NCBI GenBank assembly: GCA_948144175.1
Contig: CANXME010002010.1
Location: forward strand, 868,001 to 932,000
DNA: 64,000 nucleotides
Direction of reading: 5' to 3'
Source: Closterium sp. NIES-65
Taxonomy: Eukaryota; Streptophyta; Zygnematophyceae; Desmidiales; Closteriaceae
The notes beneath the pieces are model-generated. The model was not told where the DNA came from, did no database searches, and was given only the letters and a program-made list of their open reading frames with translations. Shown in pieces: positions 2,410 to 58,650 of the stretch (positions are counted from its first letter, which is position 1; every line of letters begins with the position of its first letter). Both the position numbers and the translations under genes were made by a program.

Positions 2410-3900
2410 CTCCCACACCTTCACCCTCGACTCTGGATCGTCTCGCTCTTTCTTTCGGGACCGCACCACACTCACGCCGCTTAGTCGGCCGGTTGCGGTT
2501 TCCCTGGCTGACCCCTCAAGGGGTCCTGTCATGTCTCGCTTCTCCACAGTCCTCCCGTGTCCGGCGGCTCCCTCTGGCACCCTGTCTGGTCTCTACCTCT
2601 CGTCGTTCTCTACAAACTTGGTGAGTGGTGCTGACCTACAGGATGCGGGAGTCCACCAGTTCACCCCTGCTCGTCAGCGGGTGACGCACTGCACAGAGGC
2701 TAGCACGGGTCGTCACCTGGCTACGTTTACACGTCAGCCAGGGTCGAGCCTGTACACACTGACCACTGCTTCTCCTCCAGGTGCTGAGCCTGGTAGAGTC
2801 CCTGTGTCTGGTCAGGTGTTTGCTGCAGCGTCCAGGTCTGGTCCTGAGTCTGCCCCCTGTTCGTGTCGCCGTCTGTCTCACGAGACCCTCCTCTGGCACC
2901 ACTGCCTTGGCCACCCCTCTCTGCTTCGGCTCAGAGGCATGGCCTCCCGTCTTCTTGTGTCTGGTCTCCCCCGGTCCCTCCCTCCCCTTCCTCAGGGCCC
3001 TGGCCCTGCCTGTGTCCCCTGTGTCGAGGGGCGCCAGCGTGCTGCCCCTCACTCCTCCCAGTTTCCTCCGACAGAGGCTCCGTTGCAGACGCTTCACATG
3101 GACGTGTGGGGCCCTGCCCGCGTCCGTGGACTCGGTCACGAGCGCTACTTCCTGTTGGTGGTTGACGACTACTCGCGTTACACCACAGCCTTCCCCTTGC
3201 GCAGCAAGGGTGATGTCACTGAGGTGCTGATCGACTGGATCCGCGCAGCTCGTCTCCAGCTCAGGCAGAGCTTTGGCTCGGACTTTCCTGTGTTGCGTCT
3301 GCACTCGGACAGAGGCGGAGAGTTCTCCTCTGGCCTTCTGCGTGCCTACTATCGTGCGCGAGGCATCCGCCAGACCTTCACGCTTCCGGACTCCCCGCAG
3401 CAAAATGGGATTGCAGAGCGCCGCATTGGCATGGTCATTGACGTCGCTCGTACGTCTATGATGCATGCGGCTGCCCCCCATTTTCTGTGGCCGTTTGCGG
3501 TCAGGTACGCGGCGCATCAGATCAACCTCCACCCCAGGGTCTCCAGGCCGGAGACCTCCCCAGCCTTGCTGTGGACGGGGAAGGTTGGCGGTGCGTCGGC
3601 GTTCCGGGTCTGGGGATCTCGGGCGTTTGTCCGCGACTTGTCTACGGACAAGCTGTCCCCTCGCGCTGCTCCCTGCGTCTTCCTGGGGTTCCCCCCCGAC
3701 GCCCCTGGGTGGCAGTTCTACCACCCCACCTCTCGACGTGTTCTGTCCTCCCAGGACGTCACCTTCGACGAGTCGGTACCCTACTACCGCCTCTTCCCCT
3801 ACCGCACTCCGTCCCTCCCCCCGCCCCCGCTCTTCTTGGTACCAGGTCCCCCCCCGGTAGACCCCCTCCCCCCTCAGGGTCCTGCCCCTTCAGGTGTGTC
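2410..3900 (+). pseudogene. Protease and integrase region of element A
   Basis: The aspartic protease motif is LDSGSSRSFF near 2426. The pre-integrase zinc-binding segment follows (LLWHHCLGHPS near 2890, then CVPC near 3010). The integrase core has its three acidic residues in MDVWGPAR (near 3100), LHSDRGGEFSS (near 3300) and NGIAERR (near 3405). The C-terminal part ends in the FYHPTSRRV and VTFDESVPYYRLFPY motifs that are shared with B, E, I and K. These enzymes would mature the polyprotein and insert the cDNA. Treated as a fossil. Confidence 0.9.
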
Positions 3901-11000: not shown

Positions 11001-11344
11001 TGTCAGAGGTCCACTGGTGATCCCCGATTGACCCTAGGGAAGGGTTACAGGCTTATTGTACTGGGGGATTATGGGCGCACTGACCCGCTACTTAACAAGC
11101 CCTTTTATCCCTGTGGTCTAGTGGTTGGGATTCTGACATGGTATCAGAGCGAAGGTCTCGGGTTCGAATCCCGGTGTATGCACTTCGGGCATCCCGGTGC
11201 GGGGGGGTGTCAGAGGTCCACTGGTGATCCTCGATTGATCCTAGGGAAGGGTTACAGGCACGTTGGCCTGGGGGGTTATGGGCGCACTAACACGCTACTT
11301 TACAAGCCCTTTATCCCAATGGTCTAGTGGTTGGGATTCTGACA
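11001..11344 (+). mobile_element. H1: 344-bp TRIM element
   Basis: Two LTRs (11001-11138 and 11208-11344) flank only 69 bp of internal DNA. The internal part holds a perfect primer site, TGGTATCAGAGC (11139-11150), and ends in a GCGGGGGGG purine tract before the second LTR. The target duplication is TGAGG at 10996-11000 and 11345-11349. The two LTRs differ at about 14 positions, so it is old. It cannot encode proteins and must have been moved by another element's enzymes. A second copy (H2) lies at 36647-38242. Confidence 0.93.
11114..11171 (+). promoter_or_regulatory. tRNA-like Pol III A and B boxes spanning LTR and primer site of H1
   Basis: TGGTCTAGTGG (11114-11124) fits the Pol III box A of tRNA genes, and GGTTCGAATCC (11161-11171) fits box B, 36 bp apart. 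The surrounding sequence resembles a tRNA-Glu type D arm and a T arm (TCGGG TTCGAAT CCCGG), but no acceptor stem closes, so this is not a functional tRNA gene. The same pair sits in H2 at 36760-36770 and 36807-36817 with identical spacing. Confidence 0.65.
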
Positions 11345-14297: not shown

Positions 14298-17200
14298 GAT
14301 GAAAAATTGGAGGTCGCGCGCCACGAACGCGTGACACAGAGTAGGGCAGCGGAAGCAGCAGTAGGGCCCACAGGCCGGGAGCGGGAGTGCTCTGAAACCA
14401 TGTGAAGAATAGTGAGGATAGTTAGGAGCCATAGCTAGGTGAGCCCTAGCTAGGCAAGTGAAAGTTTAGGCAAAGAAGAAGGTTTCACTAGCAGCAATGA
14501 GGATACATATAGCAAACCCTAGATGGGTTGTACTCGTTATAGAGCACCCCACTACAGGCTAGAGAATAACATTCTGACAGGTCAGCAGGTAGGTGAGCCA
14601 GCGTAACTCATGTGCAGCCATGGCTGTGGCGTAGACCTCAGCCTCACAACTGGAGCTCAGAACTGAAGACGAACGTGTAGAACGCCACGAAACTGAGCAA
14701 GAGCCAAGGCTAAAGGTGTAACCCTGTGACGACTACTGAGTAGCCTGGTCGTCAACCCAAGAAGCGTCTGAGTGCCCTCTGAGAACAACTGAGCTCCTCC
14801 CTCCAAGCACGAGCCCCATGCCCGATGTACTGCACAAGTAGCGCAGTACCTTCTTTGCAGCATCCCAGTGCACCTTTCGGTGCCTACCAGGAGCCACGTA
14901 GCAAGCCAAAAGGCCAAGAGGGTATGCTAGGTCAGGAAGAGTGCAAGTCATCAGGTACATGAGGCAGCCAACTAGCTCTGGGTAAGGACCACTCGGCTCT
15001 ACGAACTCGTCCGAAGGTGGAGCTGAGAGCGAGTGACCTGTAGCCAGAGGAGTGGCTTGTGCCGAGGACCAGGTGAAGCCGAAGCGCTGAAGGACCTGCT
15101 GCACCATGTGTGACTGAGTCAGTGTGATGGTGCGGCGTGCTCTGTCCGGGGTGATCTGCAAGCCAAGGTAGCTTCGCAGTTCACCCAGGTCTGTGCACGT
15201 GTGTCTCTTCTGCAGATCCAACTTCACGTTGGCGAGAGCCTCAGTGTCAGCAGTAGCAAAGACCAAGTCGTCGACGTACACGAGGATGTAGAATGGCGGC
15301 AGTGAAGTGTCGGTGCGCAGAAACAGCGACGGGTCAGCAGTAGAAGGCGCGAACCCAAGAGCTGCAAGAGTAGTCCTCAGTGTGTCGTGCCACTCACATG
15401 GCGCCTCGCGAAGACCTTAGACCGGCCGCCGGAGGCTCCACTAGGTACCAGGAGGAAAAGACCCAGTGAAGCCAGGAGGGCGACGCAGCCAGATCTCCTC
15501 GTGCAGGCTGCCCTGCAAGAAAGGTGTGCTGAAGTCAAGCGAGTGAAGCTCGTAGTCACGATGAGCGACAACGTGCAGTAGCACCCAAAGAGTGGTCATC
15601 TTTGGGGTGGGGGAGAAGGTCTGGAAGAAGTCTACTCCCTCTCGCTGGCTGAAGCCTCGAGCAACGTAACGAGCCTTGAAGACAGGCGGAGAACCTGGCA
15701 GCCGCTTCACCCTTAAATCCACATGCCACTGACGATGTTCGCCCCAGGATGGGGAACCTCGTCGACATATGTGCCTGTGGACTTCCAGGATGCCATCTCT
15801 GCGTCCATGGCTGACTGCCACTGAGAGGAGTACTCACTCGCGATCGCCTCAGCGTAAGAGCGCGGGGTCGGAATGTCTAGAGCATCTGGGTCTCCTTCAG
15901 GTGCAATCAGCATGGATACGAGATGAGGTACAGCAGCGGAAAAGCATTCAAACTACTCCTGCATGTCCTCAAGGACGTCCGTGCCAAGAGCACACTCACC
16001 CCCGACGGACGGAGGACAAACAGATTCAGACTCAGCAACAAGACTCGCGGCGTAGTCTAGACGACATCGAGCAGCAAAGTCGACAAGCTCAACAACTAAG
16101 GCAGACGCAGCGGCAGACTCAAAGGAAGGGTCAGTGATAGCCGTGGCCAGGAGACGCGTGACAGTAGGACTAGCAGCACGAAGAGAGTCAGACTCTGGGT
16201 CAGCAAGGGCAGGAAGAGAGGACGCAGGAGGAGAAGGCTGACGGACACGCTGTGGAGCAGTGGAAAGACGAAGCGTCATCTGGTGAGTGCCTAGGACAGC
16301 AGGAGGACGCTGACGCGGGACACAACGACCAGTGCGAGCAGCACGAACAGGTGATGCAGAACGAGACTCAGGCAACACAGGACGATACGCAGGCTCATGA
16401 CGCTCTGTAAGACCTCCTGTCGGACCAGTGTAGGGAGAAGGACCAGGGAGTGGCGAGGCAGGCTGTAACTGTGACTACGACTGGACAGGCGGAGGACACG
16501 CTAAGGAGGGAGCAGGACAAGAAGGAGGCGGCTGACCAAGAACCTGCTGAAGGAGTGGAACGAAGTACGGCCGCGACCGTGAAGCGCCCCCAGAACCAGT
16601 AGAGACAGCACCAGAACCCCCAGCAGCAGCTCCGACTCCTGTAGCACCACCAGTAGCTCCAGTAGTGCCAACTCTAGTACCCCCAGAAGTACCAGCTCCA
16701 GCCGCACCGTCGGCTCCAGCAACTACAGGACCAACCCCAGGGTCAGCAGCTACACCAACTCCAGTAGGCCAAGCGTCCTCAGCTCCTCTGGAAGCTCCAG
16801 CAGCTCCAGCACCAGCAGCTCCAACTCCAGTACCAGCAGCACCTCCAGCCGTACCAGGGCCTCCAGCGGGCGGCACCCTAGTGGTAGGTGCGCCGCTCAG
16901 GAGGCTGCAGCGCTGAGCGTACCAATCACGCAGTCGTTGTGGGGACGGCTGCGACCCAGCACCCGCAGCACCACCAGATCCAAATCCGGCAGAACCCCCA
17001 GCTCCAGCAGCCCCACGCCGGAGGCTGTAACGCTGAGAGTACCACTCACGTAGCTGCTATGAAGAGGGAGCGTCACCAGGCAAAGTACGGTCAGTCTCAG
17101 CTCCCCCAGGCTCAGCACCCCAAGGCTTAGCACCCCCAGGCTCAGCACCCTCAGTCTCAGCACCCCCAGGCTCAGCATCTCCAGTCTCAGTACCCCCAGT

Positions 17201-34651: not shown

Positions 34652-35292
34652 AGTGGCAGTAGCAGTAGTAGCAGTAGCAGTAGCAGCAGTAGCAGTAGTA
34701 GTAGCAGTAGCAGTAGTAGCAGTAAGAGCAGTAGCAGAAGTTGCTGCAGGTGGGGCGGCGCGGCTCGGTCAGGGCGGCGCGACTCGGGCGGCGCGACTCG
34801 GGCGGCGCAGCTCGGGCAGGTAGGGCGGCGCGACGGCGGGCCTATGCACGGTGCGCGGCGGCGCCTAGGGTGCGGCTGCGCGCGGGCCGCGACTGTGTTC
34901 ATGCGGCGGCTAAGCGCGAGCTGCAGCAGCCGACGCGCGATCGCCGCTGCGCGCGGGCTGCGACCTGCGGGCGGGCGGCGGTGGGCCGAGCGTCGGCCTA
35001 GGGGCGAGCGGGGCCTACGGGCGACGGCCTGCTGGGGCTCGCGAGAAAAAATCGGGCCGCCCTAGGCGGCTAGCGAGCTATTCGCGCTAAAAACGCGGGG
35101 CCGCGCTCGGGCTGCTAGCGGGCTACAAACGAGCACCGTGAGAGGAGGGCGCGCGAGGGCGCACTAGGAGAGAGGCGCACGAGGGCGCTAAGACAGTAGG
35201 GCGCACGAGGGCGCTAAGACAGTAGGGCGCACGAGGGCACCTCTAGCGGAACGATGGGCCCTTAGGTAATCGGTCCTAGGTCCCTAACCTAG
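34652..35292 (-). repeat. Leader of element I
   Basis: A GC-rich, non-coding stretch between primer site and gag. It contains a (GTAGCA)n-like array at 34650-34740, GGGCGGCGCGACTCG repeats near 34750-34820 and AGGGCGCACGAGGGCGC repeats near 35130-35240. GGGCCC is at 35256-35261. Confidence 0.8.
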
Positions 35293-35304
35293 GCTCTAAT
35301 ACCA

Positions 35305-38514: not shown

Positions 38515-39887
38515 TGTTAAAAGTATGAGGAAAAGTTTAGAACAAGAAAGAGGGGTTGCACTAGCAAGCAGTTGTGTACATATAGCAAACCCTAAGTTGG
38601 GCTGTACTCGCTATAGAGTACCCCACTGCAGGCTAGACAAATACAGCATTCTGACACACCCCCATGGCCAAATTGGGGTGTAATCAGCACAACAAGCATG
38701 CATAGGAATAGTTCACAATGATAACTAAAGCTAGAGGCTATCACATAAGGCAAGTGAGGAGGAGGAGAGACTGTGGGGGCGAGAAGATGGGAGGCGACTG
38801 CTGAAGCTGCAGACACACAGGAGCTGCTGGCTCAGTGGCTACCGAATCAAGGGCCCGGACTACAGGAGTAACTGGCTCCGCGGAGATTGTAGCCTCCTGA
38901 CTGGAGCAACTGACCCACAGGCGACTGGCGACTACCGGAGATTGTAGCCTCCGGACTACTGGCGCTGCTGGCGACACGACGGCCGCCTCCACTCAACCTC
39001 CCCCAGCTGCCCCACGCCCCTATCACACACCCCCAGCTGCACCCCTAGCTCCACTCCCACGACACCCCCTAGCACCACTCCTTCGGCTCCCACACACCCA
39101 CCCCCCTGAGCGGCAGCTGCAGCAGCGGGAGACGGAGGAGGAGGAGGAGTAGGGGACGGCGCACACAACCGGCACCCCCACAACCGCCACCCCCACACTC
39201 CCCACCCCAAACCCTAAAACGGGTGACACGGGGTAGGAGCGCGGGGGACGGCGAGGGGGACGGCGCGCGGCCCCCAGGGCGCCACCACGGGGCATCGAGG
39301 GGCCGCGTGTGGCTCCCCAGGGCGCCGCGACGTGGCAGCGGGGGGGTCGCGCACGGCTCCAGGGGCGGCGCGCGGGTCCCCGGGGGCGACGCGAGGGTCG
39401 ACGGGGTTGACGCGCGGGTACCCTGAGGCGACGTGAGGGTCGACGGGAGCGGCGCGCGAGTCCCTTGAGGCGACGCGAGGGTCGACGGGGTGTTGCGCGC
39501 AGGTCCAGCGGGGCCGGCGCGCTAGGAAGAAAAGGGGACGCGCGCCTCGGGGCGCGCGCCAGAGAGGAAATCGCCGTGCCGTCGTGTCAAAATGTAATTG
39601 TATACATCACTTTATAACTGCATGCAATGTAGACTTAGTGTAGTTATCTTTCTTGTTAGGTGGTGCACCTTTCTTCTCTTCTATCATATTTGTACCCTTG
39701 AGCCTACAGTGAAATCGTCCTTTTCTCCTTTGCAACTCACTCGATATTCCCCTTGAACCCTAAAACCTCAGCTACTAAGCTACCATAGCTATGGCTCCTA
39801 AGCCTACTTGTACTTAGTACCTTCACATGCTATCAGAGCATTTATACTCCTAGCCTGTGGGCCCATGATTCCGCTGCATTTCATCCT

Positions 39888-40560: not shown

Positions 40561-41506
40561 GCCGTGGGGGGAGGGTATGGGGGTGGCGGGTGTGGGGGTG
40601 ATGAGTGTGGGTGCTACCCTTCCCCTCCTCCTCCTACTTCGTCTCCCACTACTGCAGCTGCCGTTGAAGGGGGGTGGATGTGTGGGAGCCGAGGGGGAGT
40701 GAAACTAGGGGTGCGGCAAGGGGTGCGGCAAGGGGTGTGAACGGGGTGTGGGACAGGTAGGGGAGGTTGAGTGGAGGTGGCCGCCGTGAAGTCAGCAGCT
40801 CCAGTCGCCCGTGAGACCGTTGCGCCAGTCGCCCGTGAGCCCGTTGCTCCAGACGCCCGTGAGTCAGTTACTCCTGCCGCTCGTCTAGCCGCGGAGTCAG
40901 TTACTCCAGTTGCTCGTGTGCCAGTTGCTCCAGTTGCTAGTGTGCCAGTTGCTCCAGTTGCCCGTGTGCCAGTTGCTCCAGTTGCGCCGTGTGTCATCAG
41001 CTTAAGCTGCCGCCCACCACCTCCTCTCCTCTCATAGTCCCTCCTCCTCCTCACTTGCCCTCTCCGTCTGCTGCGCTCTGCTTGGTGTACCCCTTCCGGG
41101 GGTGTTTCTGCACGTGGTTCTTCACTGCAGGCAGTTAGAGGGTGTGTCAGAATGTAATTGTATACATCACTTTATAACTGCCTACCTGTACTTAGTACCT
41201 TCACACGTCGCACGCTACGGGGCGTGCGACAGATCTAGTAGCAGCGTAAGCAGGTTGGTGGGCCCACAGGCCAAGGAGGGACAGGCTCTGATAGCATGTT
41301 AAAAGTATGAGGAAAATTTTAGAACAAGAAAGAGGGGTTGCACTAGCAAGCAGTTGTGTACATATAGCAAACCCTAAGTTGGGTTGTACTCGCTATAGAG
41401 TACCAGACTGCAGGCTAGGCAAATACAGCATTCTGACAGTATTCCCCTATACTCTTATTTATATCGTTGTATTTGCATGTTTTTATTATCTCAAGCATGT
41501 TACATT

Positions 41507-43154: not shown

Positions 43155-43432
43155 TGGTATGAGAGCAAGTTAGAGTTTAAAGTTACCTTTTCTCTTCAAC
43201 ACTCAATACAAAGAAGACATGTCTGCTAGAAAGGAGAGGAGCTCCTCCAACGGCTCTCCAGGCACTACTCCACCTCCTGCCTCTGGCCTACAGACAGAGG
43301 AAGGGACAACCACGAGACCAGCAGCTGGGTTTACGGAAACACCCGCGGGCTTCGATCCAAGTATGATGGAGAAATTCTTCTCCTTCATGTCCTTCTACGA
43401 GCAGCATCAGCAAGAAGTACCTGCGCAGTCAA

Positions 43433-47473: not shown

Positions 47474-47718
47474 CTATCTGTCAGAATATATTTGTTGTCT
47501 AGCCTGCAGTGGGGTACTCTGTAATGAGTACAACCCTATTTAGGGCATTGTACTTGTATCCCAACTCTTGCTAGTGAAACGACTTCTCTTTCAAAAACCT
47601 CTCGACACTTGCCTCCTCACCCTCGAACTCGATCACCTAGGCACCTAAACTATGGCTTCTAAGCCTACCTTTGCTTAAGATTTTGAGATGGTATTAGAGC
47701 TTAACGCTCCTGGCCTGT

Positions 47719-47853
47719 GGGCCCACTCGATTCCGCTGCCCTATTGTGTGTCGTGCGCCCCGTGGCGCACGACCACCTTTTTTTCTTCCCGCCACGCGCT
47801 CGGGGCGCGTGGCGGTTTTCTGCCCGCCGTGCGCCCCGAAGCGCGCGGCGGGT
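47719..47853 (+). other. GGGCCC and GC hairpins downstream of the primer site of element C
   Basis: GGGCCC lies at 47719-47724. GTCGTGCGCC/GGCGCACGAC (47750-47773, perfect 10-bp stem) and CCGCCACGCGC/GCGCGTGGCGG (47789-47815, 11-bp stem) follow, then a looser one near 47824-47853. Spacers are T-rich, as in N and L. Confidence 0.75.
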
Positions 47854-48129
47854 ACCTACCTCGTCGCGGCGTCTTGGGAGCCCGCGCGCTGGCCCCGACC
47901 GTCGCCTCGTCGCGGCGTTTTGGGGGCCCGCACGCAGGTCCCTCCCGTCGCCTCATCGCGGCACTTTCGGGGCTCGCGAGCCGGCCCCTCCCGTTGCCTC
48001 GTCGCGGCGCCTTAGGGGTCTGCGCGCGGTCCCCTCTCGTCGCCCGTCGAGGCACTTTCGGGGACCTGCGCGGCTCCCTAGCACGTCACCCTTCAGGGCA
48101 CAATGGGGGCCGCGCCCTTGCCCTCCCCT

Positions 48130-48800
48130 CCGTCCTACTTTCAGCAGCTGCAGCCCCTGAAACGGCCACTGCAGCAGCAGCAGCTCCAGGAGCAGCCGCC
48201 CCAGCAGCAGCCCCTGGAGCCGCCCCAGCAGCAGCAGCCCCGGGAGCAGCCGCCCCAGCAGCTACTGCCTCTGGAGCGGCCACCCCAGCAGCAGCAGCTT
48301 GTGGAGCAGCCGCCCCAGCAGCAGCAGCCCCGGGAGCAGCCGCCCCAGCAGCAGCAGCCCCTAAAGCCGCCCCAGCAGCAGTAGCCCCGGGAGCAGCCGC
48401 CCCAGCAGCAACAGCTCCAGGAGCAGCCGCCCCAGCAGCAGCCCCTGGAGCCGCCCCAGCAGCAGCAGCCCCGGGAGCAGCCGCCCCAGCAGCTGCTGCC
48501 TCTGGAGCGGCCACCCCAGCAGCAGCAGCTTGTGGAGCAGCCGCCCCAGCAGCAGCAGCCCCGGGAGAAGCCGCCCCAGCAGCAGCCACTGGAGCAGCCG
48601 CCCCAGCAGCAGCTGCCTCTGAAGCGGCCACCCCAGCAGCAGCAGCCCCTGGAGCTGCTGCTACTGCAGCAGCCACCCCAGCAGCAGCAGCACGTGGAGC
48701 AGCAGCAGCAGCAGCCGCCCCAGCAGCAGCCCCAGCAGCAGCAGCCACTGGAGCAGCCGCACCAGCAGCAGCCGCCCCTGGCCCCTGCAGCAGCCGCTCA
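48130..48800. repeat. CAGCAG-rich tandem repeats in element C
   Basis: The repeats have a higher-order unit of about 250 bp: the segment near 48178-48400 recurs near 48416-48640. Long frames (poly-Ala, Gln/Pro-rich) exist in several phases on both strands, which is a composition effect. Confidence 0.85.
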
Positions 48801-48959
48801 TGGACCAGGTGCAGCCGTGTTGGGTGAGTGTGGGGGTGCTAGTTGTGGGGGTGTCGGTTGTGCGTGCCGTCCCCTCCTCCTCCACCTCCTTCGTCTCCCA
48901 CTGCTACAGCTCTCGCTAAGGGGGGTGGATGTGTGGGAGACTGGGGTTTAGGGTTTAAA

Positions 48960-56820: not shown

Positions 56821-56871
56821 GATGTGGTGGGCCCTAAGCACAGTTCCCACGGGGGAACCTGCTCGATACCA

Positions 56872-57731: not shown

Positions 57732-57779
57732 TGGAATCAGAGCAGGTCCCCTCCTAGGGACTGTTCCTAGGGCCCACCG

Positions 57780-58650
57780 AAGCGCGCCCCGAGGCGCGCG
57801 TTCTTTTTTTTAGCGACCCTGCGTGTCGCCCTTCCCTTCGGCCCCGCTTAGGCCCTGTCGACCCCACTTAGGCCCCGCTACGGCCCCGTGTCGGCCCCGC
57901 TTAGGCCCCGTCGGCCCCGCTTAGGCCCCGTCGGCCCCGCTTAGGCCCCGCTACGGCCCCTCGTCGGCCCCGCTTAGGCCCCGTCGGCCCCGCTCAGGCC
58001 CCGTCGGCCCCGCTTAGGCCCCGCTACGGCCCCGCGTCGGCCCCGCTTAGGCCCCGTTGGCCCCGCTTAGGCCCCGTCGGCCCCGCCTAGGCCCCGCCGA
58101 CCCTACTACGGCCCCGCTACAGCCCGTCGTCGGCCCCGCTACGGCCCCGCTACGGCCCCGCTTAGGCCCCGCTACAGCCCCGCTACGGCCCCCATTGCGG
58201 CCCCGCTGCCCGTGCTGCAGCCCGCCGCGCCACCCATGCAGCCGCCCGTGCGCCGCCCGGGCACCCGCCCGTGCAACCGCCCGTGCAGTCGCCCGTGCAG
58301 CCGCCCGTGCAGCCGCCCACCGTGCCGCCCGTGAGCCGCCCCAGCCACCCGTGAGCCGCCCGTGCAGCCGCCCCACCCGCCCGCGAGCCGCCCGTGCAGC
58401 CGCCCGCGCCGCCCGTAAGCCCCCCCCCCCCCCCCCCCCCCCCCCCCCGCGTCACCCGAGCCGCGCGAGCCGCCCGAGCCGCCCAAGCCGCCCGAGCCGC
58501 CCGAGCCGCCCGAGCCGCCCGAGCCGCCCGAGCCGCCCGATCCGTCTACGGTCCCGGGAGCCGGATCCTGTGGGGCTGCTGCTACTCCTGGGCTGGCGGA
58601 GTTGCTGAGCTGCTGTGCTGCTGTCCTACTGAGCTGCTCGACCCTTCTTC
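57780..58650 (+). repeat. Tandem-repeat leader of element E
   Basis: GGCCCCGCTTAGGCCCCGTC units fill 57840-58200, CCGCCCGTGCAGCCGCCCG units fill 58200-58410, then a run of about 29 C (58420-58448), and GAGCCGCCC units to about 58545. GGGCCC is at 57770-57775 and a GCGCGCC/GGCGCGC hairpin at 57783-57800. It is non-coding; the long frames are composition effects. Confidence 0.87.

Follow-up and report, generated by a model that had tools for sequence, protein, structure and literature searches.

GGGCCC in the leaders of Closterium Ty1/copia elements is probably part of an extended primer-tRNA binding platform

The hexamer GGGCCC, which recurs just inside LTR elements of Closterium sp. NIES-65, is probably part of an extended binding platform for the primer tRNA in Ty1/copia leaders, one that would resemble the boxes of yeast Ty1 but use the anticodon stem. 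The conserved leader boxes 3′ of the 12-nt primer site are complementary to the body of this tRNA, follow its order and keep roughly its spacing. Only the hairpin that follows the primer site stands apart; the other conserved boxes match the reverse-complemented primer tRNA and keep its order. An earlier, sequence-only reading of this DNA had compared the hexamer with retroviral dimer-initiation loops. Judged from alignments, counts and predicted folds, this should be replaced by the putative primer-tRNA platform, the hexamer itself being real and widespread in this genome. GGGCCC is palindromic because the initiator tRNA itself has GGGCCC, and the arms of a stem, once joined with the loop left out, read as a palindrome.

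The window, i.e., the whole 64,000-nt stretch of DNA that was analysed, is rich in Ty1/copia-like elements: seven of the nine reading frames scanned contained Pfam gag, integrase or RVT_2 domains, and Pfam domains were absent from the other two, one of them in N (the frames of C, L and M lay outside the scan). Primer sites complementary to the 3′ end of initiator tRNA-Met lie beside the 5′ LTR, with downstream LTR copies for C (98.9% over 184 nt), M (96.5% over 142 nt), L (97.4% over 156 nt) and B (100% over 135 nt); N gave short pieces only, and no LTR copy was found within 14 kb for E, I and D. The sequence-only reading had placed GGGCCC 30–43 nt from the start of the initiator-tRNA primer site in seven elements, with a distance of 30 or 31 in C, N, M and L, and this was confirmed to the nucleotide in all seven, the distances being 30 in C, 31 in N, M and L, 37 in B, 38 in E and 43 in I. 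GGGCCC occurs 20 times in the whole window, compared with 36 expected from shuffles, so that its presence in seven of seven leaders is unlikely to be an effect of composition. A cis signal common to several element families is thereby supported, and the claim that coding and non-coding elements have it in common stands in part: B's own frame carries RVT_2 (reverse transcriptase, Pfam) and the scanned frame of N carries nothing, but E and I count as coding only through the DNA similarity they show to other frames in the scan. Element D was correctly said to lack the hexamer; its primer site at 43155 (one mismatch) is followed by a gag frame starting 64 nt later, and no GGGCCC lies within 120 nt of that site. 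Since D has a primer site and a gag frame but no GGGCCC, the platform would not be universal.

Two leader layouts could be distinguished. In class 2 (C, N, M and L), CCTGTGGG lies upstream of the hexamer and CTTCCGCTGC, or nearly that sequence, lies downstream. The upstream box is complementary to the T-stem 5′ strand, the variable loop and the anticodon-stem 3′ strand, it abuts CCC, and the D-arm box comes next; GGGCCC is here the point where the two anticodon-stem complements meet, the complement of the loop being missing. In C (plus strand), the primer-binding site at 47689–47700, complementary to the initiator tRNA-Met 3′ end with one mismatch, is followed by the upstream box at 47708–47721, by GGGCCC at 47719–47724 and by a D-arm box at 47730–47739 that has nine of the ten letters of CTTCCGCTGC. 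N, also on the plus strand, has its primer-binding site at 39828–39839 (one mismatch), an anticodon-stem box at 39848–39864 that includes GGGCCC at 39859–39864, and a D-arm box at 39868–39877 (9/10 letters). On the minus strand, the corresponding features of M are at 41285–41296 (one mismatch), 41260–41277 (GGGCCC at 41260–41265) and 41241–41251 (one mismatch), and those of L are at 14389–14400 (one mismatch), 14364–14380 (GGGCCC at 14364–14369) and 14346–14356, where the D-arm box reads GCTTCCGCTGC.

Class 1, represented by B and E and in similar form by I, places a hairpin between the primer site and GGGCCCACC, which reads GGGCCCA in I. This 9-mer is the complement of the anticodon-stem 5′ strand, the base preceding it and the CCC of the anticodon loop. 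The primer-binding site of E lies at 57732–57743 on the plus strand (one mismatch), directly followed by the hairpin at 57744–57763, and GGGCCCACC is found at 57770–57778. B, on the minus strand, has a primer-binding site with one base missing at 56861–56871 (start at 56871), a hairpin at 56841–56860 and, at 56824–56834, GGGCCCACCAC, 11 nt complementary to the tRNA that contain GGGCCC at 56829–56834; the hairpins of E and B were assigned by sequence, similar leaders having been folded. In I (minus strand), the primer-binding site at 35293–35304 (one mismatch) shares its last base with the inverted repeat CCTAGGT/ACCTAGG at 35275–35293, and GGGCCCA at 35255–35261 (GGGCCC at 35256–35261) is followed by TTCCGCT at 35245–35251, which by sequence is part of a D-arm box. 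The inverted repeats previously noted in B, E and I correspond to the hairpin of class 1 leaders. It was predicted at −6 kcal/mol or lower in 18 of the 24 representatives whose primer site and hexamer are 16 nt or more apart (z-scores relative to shuffles ran from about 0 to −3.0), and by inspection of the sequences its arms vary in concert between families (GTTCCC/GGGAAC, GGTCC/GGACC).

The 874-Mb assembly contains the 14-nt string CATGGTATYAGAGC 9218 times, and many of these sites are tRNA-derived repeats. Leaders were sampled from 100 listed places of this string and 40 of 80 further listed places, selected on the primer site alone and picked non-randomly, by order in the contig list; the 144 records were reduced to 138 by merging identical ones and to 97 by pattern removal of 41 tRNA-like repeats (28 and 13). 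The commonest of all 6-mers in these leaders was GGGCCC, present at 71 of the 97 primer sites, which formed 46 clusters with the hexamer in 26 of the representatives. Genome-wide, GGGCCC lies 15–45 nt beyond the exact primer-site string CACATGGTATCAGAGC at 993 of 1577 sites (repeat counts that may be lower bounds), and the observation thus extends across the genome. Its place had been called fixed; the location is indeed recurrent, but the sampled offsets run from 25 to 51 nt (median 38, in a search starting at base 20), for which that term is too strong.

The primer-site string TGGTATCAGAGC also occurs in abundant tRNA-derived, SINE-like repeats, where GGTTCGAATCC follows it (41 of 138 sampled sites), and string-only counts of primer sites are inflated because of this. 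The primer-site strings at 11139 and 36785, the other two exact matches in the window, have no hexamer, are followed by the tRNA-like box GGTTCGAATCC and look like SINEs.

Conservation around the hexamer differs between the classes. In the class 1 sample, 59 of 60 hexamers are followed by ACC, the exception being L160, in which TAC follows; entropy at these three positions is 0.12, 0.12 and 0 bits and reaches 1.43 bits at the fourth base, whereas the base before the hexamer has 1.12 bits and the left flank is varied (CTA in 31 and CTT in 8 of the 60, others in the rest). Other neighbouring positions in class 1 show 0.6–1.8 bits. Across the genome, GGGCCCACC was found at 861 of the 1577 primer sites and its mirror GGTGGGCCC at 7. 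Class 2 behaves in the opposite way: 10 of 11 sampled hexamers come after CCTGT, conservation extends 5′ (CCTGTGGGCCC), and the right flank is varied (GCT 4, ACC 3, GCC 2, TAC 2). Conservation leaves the hexamer mainly on one side in each class and on opposite sides in the two, as the tRNA predicts and a palindrome would not. Entropy over 19 distinct class 2 rows (C, N, M and L among them) does not exceed 0.3 bits in CCTGTGGG or 0.49 bits in the D-arm box and is mostly 1–2 bits around the boxes; as the rows were picked with loose box patterns, this conservation of core letters is partly circular. The boxes lie 6–19 nt apart in 23 class 2 rows picked in the same way, 20 of which have CCTGTGGG and 19 CTTCCGCTGC. 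Many class 1 leaders carry the 9-nt box alone, without a D-arm box. Over all clusters, the commonest box is that of the anticodon stem; the exact D-arm box CTTCCGCTGC is present in 10 of 46 and CCTGTGGG, hairpin copies not counted, in 6 of 46, and class 2 leaders also match part of the T stem.

The host initiator tRNA-Met is represented by 25 genomic copies in a pattern search, all of them called tRNA-Met (CAT) by ARAGORN. These genes contain GGTGGGCCC, and the commonest forms contain GTGGTGGGCCCATAACCCACAGG, which we take to be of plant type. Counted from the start of the primer site in the reverse-complemented tRNA, CCTGTGGG, GGGCCC and CTTCCGCTGC start at 30, 42 and 54, and the median offsets in the sampled leaders are 26, 38 and 45.5. 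Order is kept in 17 of the 17 leaders with at least two exact boxes, the D-arm box being last in all 17 (a count that leaves out CCTGTGGG where it lies in the class 1 hairpin, in five leaders). When the 46 cluster representatives (88 nt past the primer site) were aligned locally to the reverse-complemented tRNA body, the summed score was 1288.5, compared with 738 ± 40 (maximum 878) for 500 dinucleotide-shuffled tRNAs, 732 for the tRNA sense strand, and 734.5 and 739 for the reverse complement and sense strand of tRNA-Ser; the clusters are incompletely independent, since the leaders share ancestry and a single genome supplied them all. Masking GGGCCC on both sides still left a score of 882 against 695 ± 35 (maximum 788) for shuffled tRNAs. 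Against 200 dinucleotide shuffles of their own sequence, 29 of 46 clusters reached P ≤ 0.01 and 33 reached P ≤ 0.05; 13 of 46 were above P 0.05, about a dozen of which we take, by eye, to be other than such leaders, and L059 does resemble one. An exact 8-mer match to the tRNA complement was found in 32 of 46 clusters; when the leaders were mononucleotide-shuffled 500 times, 3.9 clusters on average and at most 10 had one, and reverse-complemented leaders gave 10. Of 22 listed widely shared 6-mers, 13 belong to the tRNA complement, with GGGCCC, GCCCAC, GGCCCA and CCCACC, the top four, among them; the other nine include T runs and words from the hairpin (CCTAGG and GGTTCC, for example).

Duplex energies lend weaker support. 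The summed energy was −2422.6 with the initiator tRNA, −1829 ± 86.5 with 60 shuffled versions of it and −2155.6, in between, with tRNA-Ser; because tRNA-Ser also beats the shuffles, this test is less specific than the sequence test, and L005, L144 and L162 score better with tRNA-Ser than with initiator tRNA (among the 30 of 46 rows listed). As isolated duplexes, with the cost of opening the tRNA excluded, the 9-mer GGGCCCACC and its tRNA stretch reach −20.1 kcal/mol and the hexamer with itself −12.5 kcal/mol. The anticodon stem is stable and would need opening for such pairing, which counts against the platform, and in 20 of 26 predicted folds the hexamer is mostly paired within the leader, so that the leader, too, would need opening.

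Twelve of the 26 sampled sites that lack the hexamer retain a CCTGTG or CTTCCG box. Among these, L076, L080, L082, L136 and L146 have kept CCTGTGGG, ACCAC and the D-arm box (with one change in L146), whose retention in L141 and L158 goes with a GATCCT piece that corresponds to the T stem. When compared with L149 and L088, L160 and L133 have class 1 sequence up to GGGCCC (AGGCCC in L133) and class 2 sequence beyond it. Leaders of this type look recombinant, their sequence suggesting template switching at the common box.

If the extended primer-tRNA platform operates as proposed, element RNA would anneal to the opened initiator tRNA at several places, aided by a chaperone of the Gag type; annealing at several sites could select and package the right tRNA, and the annealed tRNA would be positioned to start reverse transcription, as with the boxes of yeast Ty1. 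A wider and rather unlikely possibility is that the copia leaders of this lineage, from coding and non-coding elements alike, act as antisense versions of the entire initiator tRNA built from modules (T stem, both anticodon-stem strands and D arm), which possibly began as reverse-transcribed primer tRNA and were trimmed to boxes that open and hold the tRNA and perhaps withdraw it from translation during packaging, with the anticodon-stem box as a common key for non-coding use of coding machinery. Were this so, that box would let non-coding elements use the machinery of coding ones. If many families carry tRNA-matching boxes, then primer choice, tRNA packaging and the borrowing of coding elements by non-coding ones become testable from sequence, and the roughly 1000 sites that this genome holds for a single exact primer-site string form a large natural variant set for finding the contacts that matter.

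That the boxes are a functionless remnant, left when reverse transcription read deep into the primer tRNA and its complement was built into an ancestral leader, is improbable. Plus-strand synthesis normally copies part of the tRNA, and the matches are collinear with the tRNA from the T arm to the D arm, nearly continuously in L147 and L076, as such a fossil would have it; reverse-transcribed tRNA may indeed be the origin of the boxes. A remnant without function does not fit the near-invariant class 2 boxes, set among flanks of mostly 1–2 bits with spacers of 6–19 nt, the retention of different boxes by the two classes, or the 59 of 60 class 1 hexamer sites that keep GGGCCCACC amid varied flanks.

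Retroviral dimer-initiation loops present a six-base GC-rich palindrome near the primer site, and the earlier proposal, in which GGGCCC in a hairpin loop would kiss the same loop of a second RNA copy, is very unlikely here. The hexamer is a perfect palindrome and the top 6-mer of the sampled leaders, its six G-C self-pairs are stable (the −12.5 kcal/mol above), and palindromes in Ty1 RNA have been proposed for dimers, as described in PMC4974528. Yet the conserved unit is asymmetric, as the counts for GGGCCCACC and its mirror show, and folding of the 26 hexamer-bearing leader representatives gave no consistent apical loop for GGGCCC, which the predictions placed in a hairpin loop for 6 of 26 only (5 of 26 with the primer site blocked). 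Dimerisation would also leave CCTGTGGG and CTTCCGCTGC unexplained, as well as the other boxes retained by 12 of the 26 hexamer-less leaders; unlike a retroviral dimer loop, the Closterium box is antisense to a tRNA. The few hexamer variants decide nothing on dimers, as AGGCCC, GGGCCT, GTGCCC and GGCCCC break the palindrome and AGGCCT (L150) keeps it. The hexamer may have a dual role in dimer formation and tRNA pairing. For other elements, the case advises caution: since complements of tRNA stems can look palindromic, a palindromic word close to a primer site does not have to serve dimerisation.

Sites of plant TCP transcription factors need no fixed strand. It is hard to believe, with very little probability in its favour, that the hexamer marks such a site, GGNCCCAC (TCP class I) or GTGGNCCC (TCP class II), acting as a DNA enhancer just inside the element. 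The GGNCCC core is present and is flanked on one side by CAC or GTG, a sequence match to a putative TCP site, and by the consensus in PMC4070083 GGGCCCAC fits class I and the GTGGGCCC of class 2 leaders fits class II. Against this, the strand is nearly fixed (861 versus 7), the boxes are arranged and spaced as in the tRNA, neither the D-arm box nor the anticodon 3′ box is a TCP site, and excess complementarity persists with the hexamer masked.

Half-tRNA priming is known from Drosophila copia, which primes with a half initiator tRNA. Least likely of all is that the box is a second primer site for an initiator tRNA cut in the anticodon loop: L011 (TATGGGCCCACC) and L109 (ATGGGCCCACC) match the anticodon side further and such priming is a copia habit (PMC6317226), but the box lies 25–51 nt inside in addition to a full 3′-end primer site at the LTR edge, where Hemivirus-type and other half-tRNA copia elements have their anticodon match, most class 1 leaders stop matching the loop beyond GGG (the left 3-mers CTA and CTT noted above), and class 2 is without the loop complement.

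The nearest known counterpart of the proposed extended primer-tRNA platform is yeast Ty1, likewise a Ty1/copia element with an initiator tRNA-Met primer and short tRNA-body boxes 3′ of its primer site (PMC5454406, PMC4974528). PMC5454406 presents Box 0, Box 1 and Box 2.1 of Ty1 as complements of the T or D hairpins and gives Box 0, Box 1 and the primer site a part in the initiation of reverse transcription; PMC4974528 describes regions 3′ of the Ty1 primer site as enabling tRNA packaging. The Closterium leaders differ in that their most conserved box corresponds to the anticodon stem, both strands of it in some leaders, and in that many families with two layouts are found in one genome. The Ty1 primer site lies within the GAG frame (PMC4974528), unlike that of D, whose gag starts past its primer site, and the leaders of the elements other than D also look untranslated. 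From its sequence, the anticodon-stem box platform would be a new variation on the known Ty1 principle, extending it to a new part of the tRNA.

Complementarity between a leader and the anticodon region of initiator tRNA-Met is also a property of the half-tRNA-Met copia elements (PMC6317226, PMC8515867). The plant survey gives full 3′-end tRNA-Met sites for most copia groups and half-tRNA-Met sites for Osser, Bryco and part of Gymco-II (PMC6317226), Hemivirus is described as using a short tRNA segment (PMC8515867), and anticodon-loop sites are reported for some fungal elements (PMC10886601); in the half-tRNA elements the anticodon match is the LTR-side primer site itself, in contrast to the extra box described here. 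In the titles and abstract openings listed from the open-licence literature, no report was found of anticodon-stem boxes added to a 3′-end primer site. The plant survey defines primer sites by a match of at least 12 bp to the tRNA 3′ end (PMC6317226), and where this match alone is the definition, further tRNA contacts go unseen.

A more distant parallel, for which no homology is claimed, is offered by HIV-1, which belongs to another virus group and uses another tRNA. Its A-loop/PAS contact lies in U5, upstream of the primer site. According to PMC1797187, primer choice there is guided by a second contact, made with the region of the anticodon, and the use of other tRNAs by HIV-1 is stabilised by U5 changes complementary to their anticodons.

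Further copies of GGGCCC, at window positions 3109, 20192, 24904, 53648 and 60907, lie inside large elements in the common context GTGTGGGGCCC or its complement; these copies are apparently coding and unrelated to the leader box. Element C contains, at 48112–48827, a long array of GC-rich repeats of 12–18 nt (CAGCAGCAGCC type), situated in a 379-codon open frame that starts at its primer site. In many class 1 leaders, and at 57770–57800 of the window, a GC-rich inverted repeat of the GCGCGCCCCGAGGCGCGC type comes right after GGGCCCACC and is followed by a T run.
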